The notes under the pieces are model-generated. The model ran no database searches and was not told where the DNA came from. It saw nothing but the letters and a program-made list of their open reading frames with translations. A stretch of DNA of 35,207 bases, taken from a virus. Both the position numbers and the translations under genes were made by a program. The stretch lies in IMG/VR virus record IMGVR_UViG_3300030106_006427, positions 1 through 35,207 of that record. One strand, 5' to 3'. Shown in pieces: positions 1,910 through 18,219 of this stretch; position 1 is the stretch's first letter; every line of letters starts with the position of its first letter.

Positions 1910-4900
1910 CTATCCTAGCAATTTAAAGTTATGTCTGATAGATCTTGTAGAAAACCCCCACTGCTCATCGTAGTCTAGCTTAGCCATATAAGGCCTATTA
2001 ATGTGTAATTCATCATCCTTTTTAACTCCCCAGCACTTGATACTAGTGATGGTAGACGTTGGATCTAAAGCTCTTACTACCCAATAGTCCTTGCCGTTTT
2101 TGGTCTTCTTTCTAACTATTTCTCTAGGAATGAACCATGCAATCCCTAGGTCGTCGTCCCACTCTCCAAGAGCAGGAACACAATATTCTTCTAACTTTCT
2201 TTGTACATCTCTATTAACAACAATGTCAAAAGGAAATACTCCGGTTAGATCAGAAATATGTCTAATTTTTTCTTCATCGCTAAAATTACCTTGCTCCGCA
2301 AATGCTTCAATATTATTTAAGAATTTTTTCTTATTCTTAGGCCTCTCGCAGGCTACTGCGCCCCAGAAGTGCTTATCGCCACTAAATCTTTCATCTATGA
2401 GGTTATCAAGAGCGCCGCATCTACAAAGAACGTCTAGGGCCTTTTTATTTAATTTGGAATAAGATATCTCTTCATTAAATAATAATTCTTCCGCAGAATT
2501 AAAAGGTCTATTGTCTATAATCTGCTTAATTGCAGCTTCCCCGAGCCCTTTTATAGAATTGAACGGCTGGATTAAAACCTTGTCGTCTTCTCCAATCGAC
2601 CACTTAGTTGTAGAAATGTTGATATCAATCGGCTGCACTTCATATCCCATCTTTTTAACAATATTAATTGCCTGTTCCTTCCTGCCTTCCGGCTCTCTGT
2701 CTAGAAACGCAGCGACCCACTCAGAAGGATAATAATTCAATAGCCAAGCACACTGATAACTTAGCACCGAATATGAGACCGCGTGACTCTTATTGAAGCC
2801 ATAGCCGGAGAAATACTCAAAATTAGCCCATAGCTTCTCGGCACTCGTTTTATCTATGCCCTTCTCCATACAGCCTTCAACAAACTTATTTTGAATTCTA
2901 TCCTTCGCCGATGCGCCTTTCCCTGTGCCCTTCTTTGTCAATAACTTTCTCAAAGCATTCCCTTCGTCGAGGGTTACATTCTTGCCCAGCTTGTGTGCCA
3001 ATAGCGCGATTTGCTCCTGGAATATTAAGAACCCGTATGTCTCTTGGGTTACCTCTCTTAGCAATGGGTGCATATAATGGATGCTGCCAGGATTTTCTTT
3101 TGCATCGACATAAGACTTATCGACATTTGCTCCTAGCGGTCCCGGTCTGTAGATGGACGTAATCGCGGAGATGTCAATAATGTTTTTTGGCTTTGCTCTC
3201 ATACAAAACTCTTGTGCACCTTCTTGCGTGAATTGGAATACTCCGGCGAAGTTGCCTTTATGGAATATATTTTCATACACGTTTTTATCATTTAGATCTA
3301 TTACATCAGGGTGTAAATTTTTGTCGTAGTACTCCCTGATATCGTTATACGTAACCTCTTCCATGCCATGGTGTCTTTCTAAAATATGCTCGATTGCAAC
3401 CTCAATCATCCTAAGTGTGCTCAAGCCTAAGAAGTCGAACTTAATGAACCCAAGAGGCTCTAAGTGCCTAACATTCTGGCCTTCCGACCATGGTGTTTGT
3501 GTGACTCCCTTGTTTGTAATAAGAGGCATGTACTTATCTAGCTGCTCTCCTATAACGACACCTCCTGCGTGCCGACTAATCGAGCGGACTGACCCGTAAA
3601 TTGCTTCAATGTGGGTCTTGATGAATGGATATTTTTCTAGATATTTCTGCAACGTCGTAGAGAACTCCATTGTCTCCTCAAAAGTAGGAACGTACACACC
3701 AGACTTAATGCCGTGCTTTTTCTTGGCTGCTGGCGTGGCTTCTTGGATCATCTTGGACGTAACAGGGTTCACTTCAGTGAAAGGCACATTATAAAACTTT
3801 GAAACATCCTTGATAAGCGAGCGCAGTTGTAGAGTATTGTAGTTAGAGATTGGCACAACCGTGTTTGCTCCCCATTCGTCAATTAGCAAATTTGTTAGCT
3901 TCATTCGGTCGCTGACATCATAATCGATATCCGGGTAGTCAGTGGCGTCTCTTCTCATGAACCGGGAGAAAAGCAAATCATATTTGATTGGATCAATTTG
4001 TGTAATGCCCAACACGTAAGACAAAAGAGAACCAGCCGCGCTCCCTCGGCCCGGTCCCGAAAGCATGACGTCATTAGCTCGGTCAGCAATCGCTTTCATT
4101 GTTAGAAAGTATTTACTAAAGCCTCTTTCGTCAATAATCTTTATTTCCTCTTTTAGTCTGTCAACATAGTTGCCCTTCTTGTGGAGTTCCATGGATTTTA
4201 ATCCCTCTATCGCTAGCTTAGTAAGTGCTCCCGTTGCCGTGTGATCCGGTGGCACCACAAACTCCGGCAGTCTCACCGTGCTATCCGGCATAAACGACTC
4301 GATTCTTTCAAAAGCGATTTTATGCGTGTTAGTAATAGATTTCATTACAAGATCATCGTCATACTCTACTTCACACATGGAAGAATACTTCTTATAAGCT
4401 TCCCACATCTGGTCTCCGTTTTTAGGATATAGTTCCATCCCTAGATCATCCACATCGATAGGCAATTCGTCTGTCAACCACTCCGGCTTTTGTGCTCTGC
4501 CAAGAAATCCGAGTCTTTTATATAGTTCTCGATCCTTCCATGCAGTCGGAGTTGGATAGTGACTGTCCGCCGTGGATATCAATTCCATATTATACTCTTT
4601 AGAGACTTCTATAATATATTTGTTTAACTCATGTTGCTCTGGTGCAGAGAACCACTGTAGTTCGCCGTACCATCGATCTCCAAAGATTGATTGCATTCTC
4701 TCTGTCGTCTCTCTCATGGCAGCTAGAACAGCGCCTGCGCCATCATCACGATTATCCCAATAGTTACCTGCGTACACGCCACCAAGGCAAGCAGACGAAG
4801 CAATAATACCGTCATTGTGTTCCTCCAATAGTTTATAGTCAACACGCGGATATCGATAACGATTATCCCCCTCATATGATTTAGATATGAGAGAGAATAT

Positions 4901-5344
4901 GTTGTTAAGGCCCGTTTGATTTTGCGCAATTAATATAAGATGATTCTTTTTCTTAATTATATTGGCTTTCGCCTTTGAATCTCGCTCGTTCTCAATCGCC
5001 ATGTTGTCTGAGTTTTTTAGTTTCCTGGCTTCCTTCTTATCTTCTTTTGCTTTTTCATATGCTTCTCTCCAATCATCAATAGACGGTAAGAAATAGGCTT
5101 CAACACCAAAAATAGGCTTAAAATTTTTACCCTGCTCTTTCATTTTTCTGGCGTGGAGGATCTGATACGACATACCGTTGGCATTTCCGTGGTCCGTTAG
5201 AGCCAGCGCGTCACATCCGTTTTGGTAAGCAAAGTCCATGTGTTCTTGTGGATAGCCAAGGCCATCAAACGGAGAGCCCACTACACTGTGGGCGTGCAAT
5301 CCTACGAACGGGATCGATGATTTTTTTCTTTCTGTATCAGACAT
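1910..5344 (-). CDS. dnaE: DNA polymerase III alpha subunit-like, family C polymerase with intact PHP domain
   Basis: A 1144-residue replicative polymerase, near the length of bacterial DnaE (about 1160). The N-terminal PHP domain (about 11-290) keeps all expected metal ligands: H17/H19 (LHAHS), D27, H52 (LTDHGN), E82 (GVEAYF), H135 (NHLILIA), C186 (SSACLGG) and D260/H262 (TADSHY). The catalytic aspartates are D472 and D474 (YPDIDYD) and D637 (FIKFDFLGL). Other DnaE signatures are GPGRGSAAGSLLSYVLGI (430-447), SIYRPGPLG, GFLIFQEQ and GFNKSHAVSYS. A helix-hairpin-helix lies near 931-947 and an OB-like segment near 1085-1135. I saw no obvious QxxLF-type clamp-binding motif. The start has a strong AAGGAGGAT ribosome-binding site and overlaps the end of the small membrane-protein gene by 8 bp. 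By family knowledge an intact PHP domain can proofread. Confidence 0.95.
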   Translation of the reverse strand: MSDTERKKSSIPFVGLHAHSVVGSPFDGLGYPQEHMDFAYQNGCDALALTDHGNANGMSYQILHARKMKEQGKNFKPIFGVEAYFLPSIDDWREAYEKAKEDKKEARKLKNSDNMAIENERDSKAKANIIKKKNHLILIAQNQTGLNNIFSLISKSYEGDNRYRYPRVDYKLLEEHNDGIIASSACLGGVYAGNYWDNRDDGAGAVLAAMRETTERMQSIFGDRWYGELQWFSAPEQHELNKYIIEVSKEYNMELISTADSHYPTPTAWKDRELYKRLGFLGRAQKPEWLTDELPIDVDDLGMELYPKNGDQMWEAYKKYSSMCEVEYDDDLVMKSITNTHKIAFERIESFMPDSTVRLPEFVVPPDHTATGALTKLAIEGLKSMELHKKGNYVDRLKEEIKIIDERGFSKYFLTMKAIADRANDVMLSGPGRGSAAGSLLSYVLGITQIDPIKYDLLFSRFMRRDATDYPDIDYDVSDRMKLTNLLIDEWGANTVVPISNYNTLQLRSLIKDVSKFYNVPFTEVNPVTSKMIQEATPAAKKKHGIKSGVYVPTFEETMEFSTTLQKYLEKYPFIKTHIEAIYGSVRSISRHAGGVVIGEQLDKYMPLITNKGVTQTPWSEGQNVRHLEPLGFIKFDFLGLSTLRMIEVAIEHILERHHGMEEVTYNDIREYYDKNLHPDVIDLNDKNVYENIFHKGNFAGVFQFTQEGAQEFCMRAKPKNIIDISAITSIYRPGPLGANVDKSYVDAKENPGSIHYMHPLLREVTQETYGFLIFQEQIALLAHKLGKNVTLDEGNALRKLLTKKGTGKGASAKDRIQNKFVEGCMEKGIDKTSAEKLWANFEYFSGYGFNKSHAVSYSVLSYQCAWLLNYYPSEWVAAFLDREPEGRKEQAINIVKKMGYEVQPIDINISTTKWSIGEDDKVLIQPFNSIKGLGEAAIKQIIDNRPFNSAEELLFNEEISYSKLNKKALDVLCRCGALDNLIDERFSGDKHFWGAVACERPKNKKKFLNNIEAFAEQGNFSDEEKIRHISDLTGVFPFDIVVNRDVQRKLEEYCVPALGEWDDDLGIAWFIPREIVRKKTKNGKDYWVVRALDPTSTITSIKCWGVKKDDELHINRPYMAKLDYDEQWGFSTRSIRHNFKLLG

Positions 5345-5582: not shown

Positions 5583-6452
5583 TCAATCAAAAATGCTCAA
5601 GTATCTCTCACCACGGTCACATAGAAATGTAACTACACAGCCATCGTGCTCGTTGTCCTGCATCCATCTCTCGGCTGCGAGTATGTTAGCTCCCGCGCTA
5701 ATTCCCACAAAGAGACCGTGCTCTCTCGCCAATTTTTTTGCTCTTTCAATAGCGTCTTCAGTTGCAATATCAATCGTCTCGTCGATCTCTTCGCGATCAA
5801 CAAGGTAATCGCCGCCGTCTCCGATCCCCTGTATGCCGTGAACCTTGCCCTCGGCAGGCATCACCATAATAAACTTGGGCAAAGGAGAATCCACAAACGA
5901 CTCCATAGCTCTTTTTGTACCCATTATCGTCCCGCCAGTTCCACCACCAGACACAATCGCGGCAATTTTTCCCTCTCCGCGTCTTATCAATTCTTGCTTT
6001 ATTTCCATTCCAGTGGTCCACTTGTGGCAATCGATATTGTCAGGATTGGCAAATTGGTTAGGAGAGAAATAGTTTTCATTTTCTTCTACCATTTTGTCCC
6101 TTAACTCAATCGCGCCTTTAAAGTCACTCTCTCCTACCTCTATTATCGTCGCTCCAAATAATCTTATCATTTGTTTTCTCTCCTCGCTCATATTGCAAGG
6201 CAAAATTATGATGACCTTGTAGCCCTTGACAGAGCCTAGCATAGAGAAGGAGATCCCTGTGTTGCCCGATGAAGCCTCGACAATAGTATCCCCCGGCTTT
6301 AGTTCTCCTCTCTCCTCTGCCTTCGTTAAAACATAATAAGCCATCCTATCTTTAATAGACCCGGTTGGATTATAGGTTTCAAGCTTTGCAAATAGCTTTG
6401 GAGCAATCTCTATAAGAGGAGTTTTTCCGATGTAGTTTAAAATATCACTCAT
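5583..6452 (-). CDS. Cysteine synthase (O-acetylserine sulfhydrylase family, PLP-dependent)
   Basis: A 289-residue enzyme of the CysK/CysM family (bacterial members are about 290-320). PLP lysine K34 sits in NPTGSIKDR. The substrate loop is ASSGNTG (60-66), the phosphate-binding loop SGGGTGGT (168-175), and other family marks are VHGIQGIG (204-211), VGISAGAN (249-256) and CDRGERYLS (278-286). The family makes cysteine from O-acetylserine and sulfide in the cytoplasm; some members use O-phosphoserine, thiosulfate or homocysteine, and I cannot decide the substrate. The motifs are complete, so the protein is probably active. The start overlaps the end of the upstream gene by 8 bp, so the two are probably coexpressed. 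This is an auxiliary metabolic gene. Confidence 0.9.
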   Translation of the reverse strand: MSDILNYIGKTPLIEIAPKLFAKLETYNPTGSIKDRMAYYVLTKAEERGELKPGDTIVEASSGNTGISFSMLGSVKGYKVIIILPCNMSEERKQMIRLFGATIIEVGESDFKGAIELRDKMVEENENYFSPNQFANPDNIDCHKWTTGMEIKQELIRRGEGKIAAIVSGGGTGGTIMGTKRAMESFVDSPLPKFIMVMPAEGKVHGIQGIGDGGDYLVDREEIDETIDIATEDAIERAKKLAREHGLFVGISAGANILAAERWMQDNEHDGCVVTFLCDRGERYLSIFD

Positions 6453-8693: not shown

Positions 8694-8966
8694 TTATTCA
8701 CTCGTTACAGCAAGGACATAGTTTTCTAGAACCATGTTGAGTTCGTCGTCTCCGATTGGAACTGTCTGCAACATAGCGCTCTCGAAAATAATCTCATCAC
8801 CCTCAGAAACATTAATATTGCAATCGTTGGCTATGGATTTCACAATTCCAATTCCATATCTCTCCGGAGGCTTGACGCCTTCAGGCAAAAGAACCATAGA
8901 TTGTTCTTGCTCCTCTTCCTCGCCGAGATCTACTACAATCATTCTATTTACTGGTTTATAGCTCAC
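8694..8966 (-). CDS. GroES-like co-chaperonin (functional analogue of T4 gp31)
   Basis: A 90-residue protein with the GroES pattern: PVNRMIVVDLGEEEEQEQ near the start, a mobile-loop region with VLLPEG (26-31), RYGIGIVKSIA, a SEGDEIIFE turn, and the ending MVLENYVLAV. Its length matches GroES (about 97) and phage co-chaperonins (T4 gp31 is 111). By family knowledge such proteins cap host GroEL and often widen its chamber so the capsid protein can fold. No GroEL gene is in the window, so it should act with the host chaperonin. The ATG has a good GGAGGA ribosome-binding site, and the gene follows the ribonucleotide reductase after 9 nt. Confidence 0.8.
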   Translation of the reverse strand: MSYKPVNRMIVVDLGEEEEQEQSMVLLPEGVKPPERYGIGIVKSIANDCNINVSEGDEIIFESAMLQTVPIGDDELNMVLENYVLAVTSE

Positions 8967-11394: not shown

Positions 11395-12750
11395 TTATTT
11401 GTTCCTTTCTTCCCACTGGGTATAAACTTTCTTCATCTCTCTTTGTTGTCGTTTTACTTCGCTTACTTCCATCTCATCAATTGTTTCGTCTGTAGGCTCC
11501 AGAACCTCTATTTTAACGTTTGAGGTGTCAAAAAGCAAAGGGAACACCATTCCATCCGGCCCATTGCGATTTTTCGCAACATACATTTTTCCAGTGTTTG
11601 CTGTCTTATCTTCCTTTGTTCTTGAAATTGTACAAATAAAATCAGATACGAAGCACTTGTTAAATGCCTCCGAGATAGCTTCCATTGTAATCACTGCTTG
11701 ATTCAACCCGGTCCTGTTAGTTTGAGATGCTGTCCAAATAGGACACTCGTACTCTTTTGCGATACCTCGCAACTCTTCATAAATAGACTCTAGTTGGTTC
11801 CTTTTCTCTTTATAATTTGTAGTTGGTTTGAGAATGTCAGCGTAATCTATGATGATCAGATCGACTTTTTTCTCTCTTTTCAATAACTTATCTAAAGAAG
11901 CCCTAATGGTATTTGTTGATGCAGATTTTGTTGGATATTCTTTAATAAAGAGTTCTCCCTTTACTTCTAGGCAGGTTTCTTTAATTTTGTCCTTAAACGC
12001 ATTTAATCCCGAAAGGGGGTATCTGGTGATGCAGCTATCGTACCTTTGTCCTACAACTTCTTCAGAAAGTTCTAGAGTGTAGTGTGCCACGGTCTTGCCC
12101 TGCCTTACAGCCGTAGCACCTAAGTGAACAAGAGCGTGAGACTTACCCGCTCCCGTGGGTGCTACAACCACCCCAAGTTCCCCTTTGCCAAGGCCGCCTT
12201 TTGTTATCTTATCTATTCGATCCCACCCTGTAGAGACAGGATTCCTAGCCTTGAATATATAACGCAACTCAAAATCTTTCTTATAGTCATGGCCATGATC
12301 ATTGTCAACCCCCAGTTTGACCGCTTCATCAATCACCTTTTTGATTTCTTCAAAAGAGCAGTTGTCCAGCAGTCCCACCGAAATCATCATCGCCTCTTTT
12401 AGCTTTTGCTTCTTACAAAAGTCTAAGGATGTGTCCTTTACATATTGGCTGTCTTCTATGTCCTTCGTTCGAATCCGGGTAAAGAAATCTCTAACTTGCT
12501 TTTTTATAAGATCCGGCTCGTCCTCCATCTCGGTTCTCAGGATAGAATCAAGAATCTCATCGCTGGGATGTACGTTATATTTTTCTCTATAATCGAATAT
12601 GAGCCCGGAGAAGACTTGCAGATACTTTGATTCGAAGAACTTAATATCTAGGACTTCTTGCATCTGCTCAGAGAACGGCCTGTCCTCCAACATTAGTTGG
12701 ACAAGTTTCTCCTGAAAGTTTTTTCCATACAAAGAAAAGTCTTGTTGCAA
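11395..12750 (-). CDS. Replicative DNA helicase, DnaB / T4 gp41 type
   Basis: A 451-residue hexameric helicase. The start is TTG at 12750 with a very strong GGAGG just upstream. Residues 1-150 form an alpha-helical N-terminal domain, followed by a RecA-type motor: Walker A APTGAGKS (197-204), the LELSEE motif (226-231), Walker B LIIIDYADIL (298-307) and IWTASQTNR (338-346), close to the ALSQLNR motif of DnaB. SRTKEDKTANTGKMYVAKNR fits the arginine-finger and DNA-loop region. It unwinds duplex DNA at the replication fork. A sigma70-like promoter precedes it, overlapping the end of the exonuclease gene. No separate primase is visible in the window. Confidence 0.9.
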   Translation of the reverse strand: MQQDFSLYGKNFQEKLVQLMLEDRPFSEQMQEVLDIKFFESKYLQVFSGLIFDYREKYNVHPSDEILDSILRTEMEDEPDLIKKQVRDFFTRIRTKDIEDSQYVKDTSLDFCKKQKLKEAMMISVGLLDNCSFEEIKKVIDEAVKLGVDNDHGHDYKKDFELRYIFKARNPVSTGWDRIDKITKGGLGKGELGVVVAPTGAGKSHALVHLGATAVRQGKTVAHYTLELSEEVVGQRYDSCITRYPLSGLNAFKDKIKETCLEVKGELFIKEYPTKSASTNTIRASLDKLLKREKKVDLIIIDYADILKPTTNYKEKRNQLESIYEELRGIAKEYECPIWTASQTNRTGLNQAVITMEAISEAFNKCFVSDFICTISRTKEDKTANTGKMYVAKNRNGPDGMVFPLLFDTSNVKIEVLEPTDETIDEMEVSEVKRQQREMKKVYTQWEERNK

Positions 12751-12772: not shown

Positions 12773-12801
12773 AATGTACTATAATAAGAGCTATTTGTCA
12801 A
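12773..12801 (-). promoter_or_regulatory. Candidate sigma70-type promoter before helicase gene
   Basis: The coding strand has TTGACA (12796-12801), a perfect -35 box, a 17-nt spacer, then TACATT (12773-12778). Transcription would begin near 12766, about 16 nt before the TTG start. The -35 box lies across the end of the exonuclease gene. It could serve the helicase, nrdJ, groES-like and following genes with host polymerase early in infection. Confidence 0.45.
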
Positions 12802-13768
12802 TCAGTATCTTGTTGAATCGCTGGAAAAGATCCATCCAGCTAGTTTCACCGAATCCGTCTTGACTCATCATCTTGATGATCTCCGTTTTATTAAAAAACA
12901 AGTCATCACTCGCTATCATTGCTCGTATCTTCATCTTCGTTGTCGCGCTTATATTGGGGGAACTTAGCTGCATCAACTTGTAGTTTTGCCTAATCAATGC
13001 AGATTCACTCAATATGCTTCCATACGCTTTCACGCCGTCAATGTTGTCCCTACAATGCTCGAAGATATCACTAATCATGTATTCTTCTTCGTCTTCAAGG
13101 AAAGGAAACCTCTTTTTGACCGTAGCTAGGCCAACGCCTTTGGCTCCGGGCAAATTATCGTTTTTATCCCCTGCTATCGCCCTAGCTAGTGCGAAGTTAT
13201 TTGGATGAATTCCATATTGATCAACTACTCGGTTAACATTAAGCACCTGCTCTTGTGTGGGTCGAAATAGTACCGTCTCGTTGTCCAATATCTGGATAAA
13301 GTCCTTATCGCTAGAAACTATCACTTTTTGCCATCCAGCGTACTCATCTAACTTAGTTGCAAAAGCTATAAGATCGTCTGCCTCGATGTGCTCAAACATT
13401 AGCTGAACCACAGGCATATAGCTTAAGTACTCTACAAGGCGCGTCTGTTGCCATACCTTATTTTGTACCTCTTCATTCTCGGTTAAATTCCTTACCTGTC
13501 TGTTCAGTCGGATAGGATTTCGACCTTCTTTGTAGTTTTTATTAATACTCTTGCGGCGCTTAGATCCTCCGGCTCCGTCCCAGCAAATGACGATTCTATC
13601 AGGCCGGATCTCTCTCGCAAGCTTTTGTAGTATCTTTAAAAATCCTTTCATGCCACCAATAGGATCTCCATTTGTGGACAAAGAAGGATCTACAATATAA
13701 GCTCGATAATAAGAATTAAGCGCGTCTACAAATAGAACTCTTCTAGTTTTTATCTTGGATTTTTTCAA
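12791..13768 (-). CDS. 5'-3' exonuclease / flap endonuclease (T4 RNase H-like)
   Basis: A 325-residue PIN-domain nuclease. Acidic metal ligands are in place: D15 (FVDALNSYYRAY), D64 (CWDGAGGSKRRK), E129, D131 and D132 (HIEADDLIA), and D154/D156 (VSSDKDF). The helix-hairpin-helix DNA-binding motif GDKNDNLPGAKGVG covers 200-213. Such enzymes remove RNA primers and 5' flaps from lagging strands. This fills the 5'-nuclease activity missing from the short PolA-type polymerase nearby. The start overlaps the preceding small gene by 26 bp. Confidence 0.9.
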   Translation of the reverse strand: MKKSKIKTRRVLFVDALNSYYRAYIVDPSLSTNGDPIGGMKGFLKILQKLAREIRPDRIVICWDGAGGSKRRKSINKNYKEGRNPIRLNRQVRNLTENEEVQNKVWQQTRLVEYLSYMPVVQLMFEHIEADDLIAFATKLDEYAGWQKVIVSSDKDFIQILDNETVLFRPTQEQVLNVNRVVDQYGIHPNNFALARAIAGDKNDNLPGAKGVGLATVKKRFPFLEDEEEYMISDIFEHCRDNIDGVKAYGSILSESALIRQNYKLMQLSSPNISATTKMKIRAMIASDDLFFNKTEIIKMMSQDGFGETSWMDLFQRFNKILIDK

Positions 13769-14078
13769 CTCTTAAAACCCTGAACGCCGCCACACCTTCT
13801 ATCTTTTTTGCAGACAATGCTAGCTTGTTCATATGTAGCTTTAAGCTTGGATTTGTTAAGAAAAATTTGAGGGAACATATGGTTATCTCCGTTTTTTCGC
13901 TAAGACTCTTCGATGGCACTGCGATATTAACAATAGTGACACCGCATAGTGCTCTCATCTCATCTAAAATTTCCGTAATATTACGATCTTTAGTAGATTT
14001 TATTGATACTTCTGCCTTGTAGACATCGTATTTTAGCGCTTCTGAAATAACTTCTCTTACTTTATCCTTTAAAAACAT
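13743..14078 (-). CDS. Conserved-looking small phage protein, unknown function
   Basis: A 111-residue protein beginning MFLKDKVREVISEALKYDVY. The middle (ITEILDEMRALCGVTIVNI) followed by EKTEITICSLKFFLT and the C-terminal AFRVLRVEKI suggest a small alpha/beta fold with a ferredoxin-like order of elements. No catalytic residues are recognised. It sits between uvsX and the exonuclease, overlaps the latter by 26 bp, and has its own AGAGG ribosome-binding site and an ACTATTTA motif upstream. A replication or recombination accessory role is inferred only from its neighbours. Confidence 0.65.
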   Translation of the reverse strand: MFLKDKVREVISEALKYDVYKAEVSIKSTKDRNITEILDEMRALCGVTIVNIAVPSKSLSEKTEITICSLKFFLTNPSLKLHMNKLALSAKKIEGVAAFRVLRVEKIQDKN

Positions 14079-14130: not shown

Positions 14131-15252
14131 CTAAGCGTCCACGTCATAAAAGTCCGAGGCGTCTCCCGTCCTATTGTGAAATTTAAAAATGATCTCTTCC
14201 TCCATTATCTCTAGAATGCGAGTTTTGAACTTTTCATTTTTCAACTTCTCGCTCCAGCTAGAGCCTTGAAACTTTTCCTCAGTACCGTCTTTGTAGGCTA
14301 TGGAATGCCAAGGGCCTCTTGTATTAAAGTGTTCTGAAGACTTAATCGCCTCAAGCCAACTCTCCTCGTCCTGCACTCTAACCTCATCTCCCCAAAGGAT
14401 CTTGAAGGTGCATTCCCTGGCTTGTGTTCCGAACTTGGACTTTTCTAGCTTTGCTTTAACCTCGGATCCCACCCTGAAGCCGTTTTCATCTTTAACAAAA
14501 GACGCCTTGGACTTGCGTCCAGTCAGCCATATGCGCAAGTCATATGCATAATGCATAGCTTTCCCGCCAGGTGTGAAGTAAGGAGTCGTCATAGCCTCTG
14601 CCACATTGGATGTAATATTAGTTTTAAGCTGGTTTAGTACAAGCAGCGTGGCTTCGGCGTTAGCAAGAGGTATCGTTAGCTTTGCCATGCCCTTGGATAG
14701 AATCCTCGGCTTAACTGCCATAGAAGAAAGAGGGTTAAAGTCTCCCTCGATATCAGTAACCGCAGGAGTCAATGCTAGACTATCCCAAATAAACAGCATC
14801 TTATTTTGATTGCCGCCCAAAAGCTCTTCAATAGTCTCTAGAACAAACTCTACGCTCTCAGCCTGGATGTATAATACCTTATCTAGGTCACAGCCAGCTT
14901 TTGCCAAGAAATCTGGATCGATCGCAGATTCCGAATCAAAATAAATCACATCGATATCTTGTTTTTGTGCGTTCGCAGCAATTTGTGCAGCGACATAAGA
15001 CTTACCAGTGGATTCTAATCCAGCAATCTCAGTTATCTTACCAACCGGAATGCCAGCGAGCTTCCCCTTACAAATAATTGAGTCCAGCCACCGTGAACCA
15101 GTCGGGATCCATCCCTTTACCTGGGTCGGATTATCTTGCGTTAGATTATAGGCAAGGTCATAGCCTGCCTTTCTATTAATAATCTTCCGCATTTCGTCCA
15201 TGCTAAGTCTTCCTAAGTTCGAATTTGTTTCTTTTTTGCTACGTCTTGCCAT
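14131..15252 (-). CDS. uvsX: UvsX/RecA-type strand-exchange recombinase
   Basis: A 373-residue RecA-fold protein. Walker A is GLESTGKS (78-85), a catalytic-Glu region follows in YFDSESAID, Walker B is KMLFIWDSLA (151-160), and VLNQLKTNI matches the loop carrying the conserved Gln at the end of a core strand. Disordered DNA-binding loops follow DIEGDFNPLSS and near TTPYFTPGGKAMHYAYDLRIWL. Length and pattern are nearer phage UvsX (T4: 391) than bacterial RecA. It forms filaments on single-stranded DNA and drives recombination-dependent replication and repair with SSB. The start has AGGA upstream. The gene follows ssb, separated by an exceptional hairpin. Confidence 0.9.
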   Translation of the reverse strand: MARRSKKETNSNLGRLSMDEMRKIINRKAGYDLAYNLTQDNPTQVKGWIPTGSRWLDSIICKGKLAGIPVGKITEIAGLESTGKSYVAAQIAANAQKQDIDVIYFDSESAIDPDFLAKAGCDLDKVLYIQAESVEFVLETIEELLGGNQNKMLFIWDSLALTPAVTDIEGDFNPLSSMAVKPRILSKGMAKLTIPLANAEATLLVLNQLKTNITSNVAEAMTTPYFTPGGKAMHYAYDLRIWLTGRKSKASFVKDENGFRVGSEVKAKLEKSKFGTQARECTFKILWGDEVRVQDEESWLEAIKSSEHFNTRGPWHSIAYKDGTEEKFQGSSWSEKLKNEKFKTRILEIMEEEIIFKFHNRTGDASDFYDVDA

Positions 15253-15336: not shown

Positions 15337-16089
15337 TTAAGAGTTAACCAACTCATTAAAAGCGCTGTCGACAGAGTTGTCTTCGCTAGTAAGAGTAGCC
15401 TCTGTTGTGCTATCTCCCTCGCTTGCAGACACCTCTTCATCGATGCTAGTCATGTAATCATGCAACATCTTACCAACATCGTCCGAACTCGGACGCTCAA
15501 ATAGCGTCGTCACATCGGGAATCGCATCTAGAAGACGCGAAGCCTCGTCACTATCCTCAACCAGGGGCGAAGTACGTCGGCGAGGCGTAATGCTCGTCTG
15601 GGGGAACTGCGCTCCTGCTGGCTTTCCGTAGGTAATTACCAAATCGGTGCCATTATCAACATCAGTGATGTCGCCGTAATCAGGATTGAGGACTAAATTC
15701 AACAACTCTTGGTACGCCATTCTACCAAAACCCCAAATTCGCACTCCCTGCTCTTCTTCCCCACGTACAATCACGGGAGCAAAAAATCGCTGTCGTGCGC
15801 TAAGGTTCTTTGCCATTTTAACGCTATCAGGGTCGCCCTGCTTATACAAAGTGCGAACAAAATCATCAAGCGGACACTCATCTCCAAAGTTCTTTTTGGG
15901 ACTCAAGAAAGGCGTATTGTTTCCAAGATTGTAATGGAACCAAAACTCTTTAAATGGATCTCCGTCAGCGGTCGGAACAATACGAATTGTTTGCTCTCCA
16001 TCCTTCGGACGCCAAAAGTTATTCTTTTCAGCACCCTTGCGATTCAAAGATGCCAGCTTCTCTTTCATTTTAGACATATCAATACCCAT
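15337..16089 (-). CDS. Single-stranded DNA-binding protein, T4 gp32-like
   Basis: A 250-residue protein. The basic start (MSKMKEKLASLNRKGAEKNNFW) is followed by an OB-type core (QTIRIVPTADGDPFKEFWFHY, RQRFFAPVIVRGEEEQGVRIWGF, GTDLVITYGKPAG) and a long acidic, Ser/Thr-rich tail from about 200 onward (SIDEEVSASEGDS), as gp32-type SSBs use to contact other replication proteins. Unlike T4 gp32, only one cysteine is present, so the zinc site is apparently absent. It coats single-stranded DNA at the fork and cooperates with UvsX next door. The ATG at 16089 has AAGGAG and its own sigma70-like promoter, fitting a highly expressed early gene. A leader hairpin may allow self-regulation. Confidence 0.85.
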   Translation of the reverse strand: MGIDMSKMKEKLASLNRKGAEKNNFWRPKDGEQTIRIVPTADGDPFKEFWFHYNLGNNTPFLSPKKNFGDECPLDDFVRTLYKQGDPDSVKMAKNLSARQRFFAPVIVRGEEEQGVRIWGFGRMAYQELLNLVLNPDYGDITDVDNGTDLVITYGKPAGAQFPQTSITPRRRTSPLVEDSDEASRLLDAIPDVTTLFERPSSDDVGKMLHDYMTSIDEEVSASEGDSTTEATLTSEDNSVDSAFNELVNS

Positions 16090-16189: not shown

Positions 16190-17035
16190 CTATAAATCAA
16201 TTTTTTGGCCCTGGATATAGGAAGCGTGGAGGACGCAGTAGGCGTAATCCTGTTCATATTCAGTGGGATAGACCGCGAATGAAACTCGTAACTTTTCTTC
16301 ACTTTTTTCTTTTACTAAGGAAGTTAATTTACGCAACAATGTTCCATCCGTCTTTAATCGTTCGTTATTGATAGCATAGTAAAAAGTCATCTGCCTAGGA
16401 TGCTCAATATCAGTAAACGGCTTCATTTCTCCCGTGTTAACGTCAACAAGGCCAATAGAAGAGATTCTACACACGTCTAGCGGGCTTGTCGATGTATCTA
16501 TTACTGCTTCCGTATTGTCACAAACGTTGAGCATGTGGATGGTGGAAACAAGAAGGCGATTAATATTTTCATGATATCCAACAACAGGCACCTCGCCGAT
16601 CGCCTCTTCTATTTTAGAATTTTCAACAATGTATAATCTCTCTAGCATGGCAGATCTCGCATACTGCTGTAATACATTAAAGACTAGGTTATGTTGCCTC
16701 TCTTTAACTTCTGGCAATAAGGAAGTGTCCGGCTTGATATAAAGGACGTAGGTTGGATGTGCCTTAAGGCGCTCCAGTATACGCAAAGACGCGCCGGAAA
16801 TATCCCCTGAGCCTCCGATTACAAACAAGACCGGCCCACTTATCTTTTCAAAAAAAGCCTTTTTTAATCTAGTTTTAGATTCGTATTCTTCATGTGTCTT
16901 TTGGGGAGTTATATAAAGATAATTGTCCTCATTGCTTTTTTTAGAATTTACCTTATAAATATCGTATTGCGGATATTGTGAGAACTCTTCAGCAATTGCA
17001 CACCCCGCGTCACCTAATCCAATAATAGTTTCCAT
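16190..17035 (-). CDS. Divergent tubulin/FtsZ-like protein
   Basis: A 281-residue protein. It opens with IIGLGDAGCAIAEEF (4-18), like the first nucleotide-binding loop of FtsZ (GVGGGGxN). Residues 68-85, PVLFVIGGSGDISGASL, sit where tubulins carry the GGGTGTG signature loop. Then follow a strand with VLYIKPDTSLLPEV, a segment like the FtsZ helix-strand LQQYARSAMLERLYIVENS (122-140) with a candidate guanine-contacting Asn139, YHENINRLLVSTIHML (154-169), and DTSTSPLDVCR (180-190) near the expected catalytic T7 loop, which is degenerate. The order matches the tubulin fold, but the glycine loop is altered and the usual C-terminal polymer-contact region is short. It may bind a nucleotide without filament-driven hydrolysis. 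ATG overlaps the polA stop (TAATG). I recall relatives in marine myoviruses, without a known role. Confidence 0.6.
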   Translation of the reverse strand: METIIGLGDAGCAIAEEFSQYPQYDIYKVNSKKSNEDNYLYITPQKTHEEYESKTRLKKAFFEKISGPVLFVIGGSGDISGASLRILERLKAHPTYVLYIKPDTSLLPEVKERQHNLVFNVLQQYARSAMLERLYIVENSKIEEAIGEVPVVGYHENINRLLVSTIHMLNVCDNTEAVIDTSTSPLDVCRISSIGLVDVNTGEMKPFTDIEHPRQMTFYYAINNERLKTDGTLLRKLTSLVKEKSEEKLRVSFAVYPTEYEQDYAYCVLHASYIQGQKIDL

Positions 17036-18219
17036 TATAACCTCTTAGTCTTCATGGAGCCGTAGTTGTTGCCTACACTCATATTTATTTTAAATCTTGC
17101 CAGATCAGTCTCCGAGAATACTTCGACAATCTCCGAAAGCATTGGTCTGTCCTCCACGCTAAAATCTATAACCAGAGAGTCGTGGACTGAAAATGCCACG
17201 TAAGACTTTCTTCCTTTTAGCATCTTCGAAACCTTTATCATGCAGCGTAAAAATAGATCACTAGTAGTGCTTTGCACGATATAATTAAATGCTCTTCTTT
17301 CATCTACCTCTATATCTCGATCGAATGGAGTTAGTACCCTTTCGCCATCGAAATACTTGTCTGTTATCTCCTTTCTACGAAAAACTTGCTCTAGTTTTTC
17401 GTTTTTAGCCAGGGGATTGTAGAGCCACGCAAAAACCTTCTTCTTTATGTCTTCTCTCGATTCTGTAGAAAGAAATACGTCTTTAGCTATCCACTCATGT
17501 ATATCTTGCTGCGGCTGCTCCACCCCTGAGAGTGCGAGGATGGTTCTTAGCTCTGCGGCGTTGAAGTCTAGTTCAACAAATAGGTCGTTATTTGGCTTTA
17601 TTAAAGATCTAAAATCCTTGTCAAGCGTCAGTATAGGGAAAGAGTTTCTTTTTGTAGTAAGCCTGCCGGTTCTCGTACCAGCGATATCGTATTCAATATT
17701 TGGGGATAGCAGATTTACCTTTTTAAGAAAAGCACGAGTTTTGGGTATGGCAAAAATATCTTTCAATCCATTAATATCGATATTTAGCCTTCTATATCGT
17801 ATATCATGTATCACTTCAGATAAGCCAAGTAAAAAATCATAATTCTTTGGTCTTTCATATGTATCAAAAACATATTGAGAGATTTGATTCTTTATATCAC
17901 AATATTCCATGAGAAAGCGATCTTGTACCAAATCGAAAAAGCATAGCTCGTTCATATCAATAAGAGATATCTCAAAAGAACGGCGAAAAGAGAGTAGTTT
18001 CTTGTTTATGTTGTCCCACTTCTCTTTTAAATGCGGAGGGCACGCGTCATCCAAAGAACAGCCGATACAATACAGCGATGCACACTCTAGATCTCCAGGA
18101 ACATACGGTACGTAATTCCAGGTCTTTGTAAGCCCCCGTGGTACGTTCTCAAAGTCTAAATTCCCATCAGTGTATATCGCCACACATTCGTTTTTGTCAT
18201 CAAGCGTTTGAAACAACAT
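17035..18219 (-). CDS. Family A DNA polymerase, palm/fingers domain only
   Basis: A 394-residue PolA-type polymerase, much shorter than E. coli Pol I (928) or T7 gp5 (704). Motif A is LDFNAAELR (217-225; D218, E223). The fingers O-helix keeps R255, K259, F263 and Y267 at exact family spacing (REDIKKKVFAWLYN). ERRAFNYIVQSTTSDL (307-322) and motif C VHDSLV (345-350; D347) follow. TGRLTTKRNSFP (184-195) is the upstream conserved region. No 3'-5' or 5'-3' exonuclease domain is visible; the N-terminal 120 residues are unlike either and hold C46, C51, C54 and C60. Catalytic residues are intact, so activity is likely. The ATG directly follows the upstream stop, and the gene is coupled to the FtsZ-like gene. 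Together with DnaE in this window it makes two different polymerase families. Confidence 0.88.
   Translation of the reverse strand: MLFQTLDDKNECVAIYTDGNLDFENVPRGLTKTWNYVPYVPGDLECASLYCIGCSLDDACPPHLKEKWDNINKKLLSFRRSFEISLIDMNELCFFDLVQDRFLMEYCDIKNQISQYVFDTYERPKNYDFLLGLSEVIHDIRYRRLNIDINGLKDIFAIPKTRAFLKKVNLLSPNIEYDIAGTRTGRLTTKRNSFPILTLDKDFRSLIKPNNDLFVELDFNAAELRTILALSGVEQPQQDIHEWIAKDVFLSTESREDIKKKVFAWLYNPLAKNEKLEQVFRRKEITDKYFDGERVLTPFDRDIEVDERRAFNYIVQSTTSDLFLRCMIKVSKMLKGRKSYVAFSVHDSLVIDFSVEDRPMLSEIVEVFSETDLARFKINMSVGNNYGSMKTKRL

Follow-up and report, generated by a model that had tools for sequence, protein, structure and literature searches.

A predicted tubulin-fold protein without canonical catalytic elements, conserved beside a DNA polymerase gene in uncultured phages

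Introduction

Phage tubulins are known from jumbo and plasmid-like phages, and they form GTP-driven filaments. PhuZ, from nucleus-forming jumbo phages, has a GGGSGS T4 loop, a T7 aspartate, a helix H8 and a C-terminal tail, and builds dynamic filaments. In phiKZ TubZ, as in FtsZ and tubulin, three elements form the longitudinal contact, namely loop T7, S9 and the base of H8; the aspartate in T7 is catalytic (PMC3678025). Guanine is held in Escherichia coli FtsZ by N165 and N186. A branch departing from the FtsZ polymerisation elements is FtsZl1 (Tubulin_2, PF13809), a divergent FtsZ-like family described by Makarova and Koonin in 2010 (PMC2875224). FtsZl1 is cellular, retains the GGGTG(S/T)G loop and is linked with membrane-remodelling operons.

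Here we analyse TUB, a protein encoded in a stretch of 35,207 nucleotides (the window), which belongs to a virus record of 49,934 bases, IMG/VR IMGVR_UViG_3300030106_006427. Like PhuZ and phiKZ TubZ, its best sequence-profile match, TUB is phage-encoded, has a predicted tubulin fold and is of similar size (281 aa, compared with ~315 aa). Unlike PhuZ, it is without the GGGSGS loop, the T7 aspartate, H8 and the tail, is not expected to form dynamic filaments, and belongs to a polymerase-ssb operon in phages whose long contigs measure ~95-203 kb and may be incomplete. The best structural matches are FtsZ and plasmid TubZ, with the T1 loop and the guanine-contact asparagines at aligned positions, but the identity to them is only ~10-15%, and GGGTGTG, NxDxxD and H8/H9 are all missing. 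TUB resembles FtsZl1 in its departure from the FtsZ polymerisation elements; it differs in having lost the GGGTG(S/T)G loop while keeping T6-H7 elements, and in its link to DNA replication.

Results

The TUB gene is coding and under purifying selection. Between the window and the related locus L001 the nucleotide change is mostly synonymous (dN 0.10, dS ~2.2; pN 0.095, pS 0.71), and TUB is therefore a real, constrained protein. A sequence-only reading of the window had singled out this open reading frame and placed four motifs in it. The frame was confirmed at exactly the same coordinates (Table 1), and so were the motifs: GLGDAGC from residue 6, GGSGDISG from residue 74, VENS at 137-140 and ENINRLL at 156-162, all falling in stretches conserved among 102 relatives. 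In-frame stops were flagged in two relatives and dismissed, as the positions lie outside the gene.

Table 1. Positions of the genes and sequence elements discussed (window coordinates, except for P0004)
Feature	Coordinates	Strand	Evidence
TUB, degenerate tubulin/FtsZ-superfamily protein, 281 aa	16190..17035	-	ORF list, predicted fold, relatives
Short family-A DNA polymerase (PolA), 394 aa, constant upstream partner	17035..18219	-	Pfam DNA_pol_A 1.3e-16
TAATG overlap, PolA stop/TUB start	17033..17037	-	ORF coordinates
gp32-like single-strand DNA-binding protein (SSB), constant downstream neighbour	15337..16089	-	Pfam gp32 1.4e-11
UvsX/RecA recombinase	14131..15252	-	Pfam RecA 8e-35, phrog_97
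5'-3' exonuclease, same block	12791..13768	-	Pfam 5_3_exonuc_N 2e-26
DnaB-like replicative helicase, same block	11395..12750	-	phrog_19 7e-75
T1-type loop GLGDAGC, residues 6-12	17000..17020	-	G6, G8, G11 invariant in 102
Altered T4 loop GGSGDISGA, residues 74-82	16790..16816	-	canonical GGGTG[ST]G in 0/102
Family signature Q123-x-Y-x-R127-S128, end of H5	16652..16669	-	Q123, R127, S128 invariant in 102
N139 (S6-H6), aligned to N165 of E. coli FtsZ	16619..16621	-	invariant in 102; weak profile-alignment register
N159 (start of H7), aligned to N186 of E. coli FtsZ	16559..16561	-	invariant in 102; weak profile-alignment register
Segment at the place of T7 loop/helix H8, residues 174-190	16466..16516	-	no NxDxx[D/E] and no helix in either model
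P0004, second FtsZ-like protein, 364 aa	L258:1890-2981	-	in IMGVR_UViG_3300025131_009739 (G005)

Structure prediction gives strong grounds for a tubulin fold in TUB, although this remains a prediction. The AlphaFold2 model of the window protein, built with 55 relatives, reached a pLDDT of 95.1 and a pTM of 0.92, and its top 50 Foldseek matches in the PDB were exclusively FtsZ, TubZ and tubulin. The best of these was Staphylococcus aureus FtsZ (7ojd; E 4.4e-13, probability 1.00, TM 0.72 by query and 0.67 by target), and Bacillus cereus TubZ (E 1.1e-12) and microtubule tubulin (E 3.9e-11) also matched. In a comparison with predicted viral structures, the best matches that bear a name were FtsZ, cell division protein and tubulin. 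A second model, of the distant relative L072 (20-sequence alignment; pLDDT 91.1, pTM 0.90), matched TubZ 4ei7 best (E 2.4e-13, probability 1.00, TM ~0.7), its top 50 being again all FtsZ, TubZ or tubulin, and the two-domain tubulin fold with the core helix H7 is present in both predicted models. The fold is thus supported by two AlphaFold models matching FtsZ, TubZ and tubulin structures at E values of ~1e-13.

Sequence profiles add less. The TUB profile matched PhuZ with a score of 43.2 (E 3e-5 for one comparison), whereas 100 column shuffles reached at most 22.1 and the reversed profile 18. This match may lean on the generic GxGxxG, and structure is therefore the main support. The FtsZ match was weak (score 23.5, equalled by two of 100 shuffles), so that the relation to FtsZ rests on structure. 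A beta-tubulin sequence, checked against PDB 5n5n, gave no significant match to the TUB profile; by eye, the order IDN..L and Y.DLN.LVS looks similar in beta-tubulin and TUB.

The sequence-only reading had interpreted TUB as a divergent tubulin/FtsZ relative, to be refuted by a predicted structure of another fold or by a confident match to another Rossmann-like family, and had proposed a profile-profile search against tubulin families. The predicted fold was that of tubulin, no other Rossmann family appeared in the top 50 structures, and PhuZ proteins were matched at a score that none of the 100 shuffles reached. The interpretation held at the level of the fold. That reading had also described the GGGTGTG and NxDxxD loops as altered, which was borne out, and the C-terminal half as short, which needs correction: the C-terminal domain is present but trimmed, with the T7 motif, H8 and H9 missing.

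Conservation was assessed in 102 TUB sequences with mutual identities below ~85%. Ten residues are invariant (G6, G8, G11, Y24, Q123, R127, S128, N139, N159 and M168), and every sequence has a GxGxxG T1 loop after strand 1. The T4 loop usually reads GGSGxISGA or SCGxIS[GA]A; neither GGGTG[ST]G nor a close PROSITE form was found in any of the 102, nor was the T7 catalytic motif NxDxx[D/E] after H7. Residues 174-214 are free of helix in the window model, as is the same stretch in the L072 model. After H7 both models run through this helix-free stretch, S7, a short strand at the place of H9, S8, H10, S9 and S10; the absence of H8 and H9 was assigned by this order of elements, not by superposition. 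Lengths concentrate at 271-299 aa, leaving no room for a long C-terminal tail.

From sequence and model we infer that TUB likely binds guanine nucleotide, although no binding data exist. The T7 motif, H8 and H9 are gone, T7 and the base of H8 being parts of the longitudinal contact, and canonical self-activating filaments are therefore unlikely, again by inference from sequence and model. TUB is probably best placed, on its predicted fold, inside the tubulin/FtsZ superfamily and, because the defining features were tested and found missing, outside its canonical GTPase families.

The family is large. A single-sequence search of IMG/VR with TUB returned 13 relatives, whereas profile searches returned at least 598 and at least 594 confirmed relatives. 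Those examined span about 40% to 99% identity, and TUB is single-copy in all 12 long contigs inspected (95-188 kb). Searches of Pfam, PHROG, NCBIfam and PDB sequences with TUB or its profile pointed to no real family, and tblastn with TUB against isolate phages (INPHARED copy) gave chance matches or none, with no PhuZ among them. Pfam PF00091 (Tubulin) had no match in the window record, the gathering cut-off not being reached, and its matches to TUB in two relatives were weak and confined to the T1 region (E about 0.008). No account of the family was found in the open-licence literature searched. TUB thus represents a large, unannotated family of uncultured phages, undescribed in the databases searched. 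A search of a genome collection returned one TUB match, in the WOR-3 MAG CP070664. A bacterial origin of this gene was rejected, as it lies, within CP070664.1, 2246237-2257046, on a ~6 kb phage fragment flanked by unrelated bacterial genes, most likely an assembly chimera.

TUB occupies a constant place in a replication block. PolA lies directly upstream in the 77 loci with both genes, with a gap of at most 30 nt in 65 and an overlap in 49; in some loci the spacing is 250-1,100 nt, rarely about 2-2.6 kb. Downstream, a gp32-type ssb follows in 84/84 loci that show this side, then UvsX, the 5'-3' exonuclease and DnaB. To avoid choosing loci by TUB itself, a search was run with PolA first: TUB was present in 76 of the 80 loci, the other four end too early to judge, and none was without it. 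The sequence-only reading had claimed an adjacent ssb and translational coupling to the DNA polymerase. The context held, and coupling is likely, as inferred from the TAATG overlap.

Outside the lineage the slot is filled differently. Three more distant relatives, Flavobacterium phage immuto, Microcystis phage Mel-JY01 and the 484-kb LR756508, keep the replication block, with TUB absent and other genes between PolA and SSB. Sister phages in IMG/VR with a divergent PolA (E 1e-9 to 1e-19) have a ~180-aa protein in the TUB slot (L358-L363), and these slot proteins may offer a clue to what TUB replaces. As the slot genes differ where PolA diverges, TUB fills a polymerase-neighbour slot that varies with the polymerase. 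In several sister phages the ~180-aa protein is followed by a putative DEDD-type 3'-5' exonuclease, as read from its sequence.

Partial correlation of protein distance matrices in 31 non-redundant loci gave 0.51 for TUB-PolA and 0.53 for SSB-RecA, compared with 0.24 for TUB-SSB, although these two are also adjacent, and 0.22 for TUB-RecA. These values hint that TUB has diverged more closely in step with PolA than with SSB or RecA, but linkage could contribute. Indeed, physical linkage together with shared exchange could by itself produce both the correlated divergence and the synteny.

Some further genes of the window were noted. Besides the short PolA, it encodes a DnaE-like DNA polymerase III alpha of 1144 aa, named from its sequence (1910-5344, minus strand), which occurs in 11 of 12 lineage records at 61-100% identity; no T4-type gp45 clamp was found in the same 12 records. 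Between UvsX and the 5'-3' exonuclease, and overlapping the exonuclease gene, lies a gene for a 111-aa protein (13743-14078, minus strand), the only Pfam match of which is a sub-threshold one to YjcQ (E 0.013). A small protein (8694-8966, minus strand) resembles, from sequence alone, a GroES/gp31-type co-chaperone. The product of a further gene (5583-6452, minus strand) resembles, in sequence, cysteine synthase (CysK), with a homologue of 54% identity directly downstream of the exonuclease in the related locus L080.

A second, canonical FtsZ-like family, P0004, was found by a Pfam Tubulin search of related genomes (E 3e-7 in G005, below the Pfam cut-off). Its gene adjoins a putative late sigma factor gene and is not beside the polymerase. 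P0004 matches FtsZ along most of the protein (hhalign E 8e-13), and its relatives carry GGGTG[ST] (81/81), DNE (77/81) and a T7-like D..DL (70/81). At least 107 relatives exist in IMG/VR (L261-L340 among them), on contigs of up to 281 kb, and no match was found in isolate phages. Five contigs carry both P0004 and TUB, and eleven have P0004 but no TUB; a constant pairing of the two was rejected, P0004 being present in only one of 13 records chosen for TUB. From T1 as far as the T7 region, TUB and P0004 align in register and show the same order of elements, but the match is modest (score 30, reversed control 26). Descent of TUB from a P0004-like protein is conceivable; the similarity in sequence is too weak to decide this.

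Discussion

The reading we favour, which in our judgement is slightly more likely to be wrong than right, is that TUB is a replication accessory that binds guanine nucleotide, probably does not hydrolyse it, and contacts PolA. It is an inference, without data on binding, oligomeric state, activity, partners or localisation. TUB would be co-produced with the phage PolA through translational coupling, and the retained T1 loop together with N139 and N159 would bind guanine nucleotide. The usual filament-coupled GTP hydrolysis would be lost, because the T7 motif and H8/H9, which complete the active site of the neighbouring subunit, are gone. TUB may then contact PolA, for example by serving as a nucleotide-locked structural subunit to hold or place the polymerase or the nascent DNA, and would not be a dynamic PhuZ-like spindle. 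Contact with PolA is proposed because of the linkage, the strict co-conservation and the correlated divergence. Among contigs with the second tubulin, the five with the TUB-type PolA subfamily carry TUB and the six with a divergent PolA do not. A bolder reading, which we raise only as a possibility, is that TUB is a constitutive PolA subunit, a nucleotide-locked anchor or clamp-like part.

Next in standing is a positioning filament. TUB subunits could polymerise through contacts unlike the canonical ones, giving a filament or ring that is stable, does not hydrolyse nucleotide and keeps phage DNA or the replication site in position; the task would be that of PhuZ and the mechanism another. The tubulin fold of both models, the PhuZ proteins as strongest profile match and the operon shared with replication genes speak for this possibility. 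Against it stand the T7 motif missing in 102/102, the absent H8 and H9, and protein lengths that allow no long C-terminal tail. A search for 201phi2-1 gp105 (chimallin) in 12 related phage records, run without a positive control, gave no match, and any positioning role may therefore lie outside a phage nucleus. Less likely, TUB may be a monomeric GTP or dGTP sensor that works as a switch to regulate the polymerase or the nucleotide supply. The guanine-pocket asparagines are invariant and the hydrolysis elements lost, as such a sensor would have it, and a ribonucleotide reductase gene lies within the same gene run; however, TUB is without a regulatory domain, and its altered phosphate loop may not distinguish GTP from GDP.

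Lower still we place a decoy that poisons or caps host FtsZ filaments and so blocks division. The topology is that expected of a cap, with the upper, nucleotide-type face kept and the lower T7/H8 face missing, and TUB could therefore join a filament end and block its growth. Yet TUB is kept with the polymerase in 76/76 loci and tracks PolA, and its profile is not specially similar to FtsZ over PhuZ. Host-takeover genes are usually variable accessory genes. The remaining rival, another Rossmann protein such as a dinucleotide-binding one with GxGxxG and an acidic residue ending strand 2, is very unlikely. GLGxAG and D30 (94/102) fit the generic dinucleotide fingerprint, and there are weak Pfam TrkA_N matches (best E 0.031), but for both models every one of the top 50 PDB matches is a tubulin-superfamily protein, matched over the whole length, and in these structural matches no other Rossmann family scores in the tubulin range. 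The functions proposed in the sequence-only reading (DNA positioning, interference with host division, nucleotide sensing) remain unproven. The strict conservation alongside the polymerase makes a host-division factor less plausible, and without the catalytic motif a PhuZ-like dynamic filament is less plausible too.

The lineage carrying TUB has no isolate in the INPHARED copy searched. What emerges is a tubulin relative, without the catalytic and signature loops, that a large lineage of uncultured phages carries as a core gene locked to the DNA polymerase. If TUB binds the polymerase, the tubulin fold would have been recruited for replication itself, and if it were a constitutive PolA subunit, it would be the first member of the tubulin superfamily inside a replisome. 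If instead it assembles without hydrolysis, TUB would represent a new way of building tubulin polymers.
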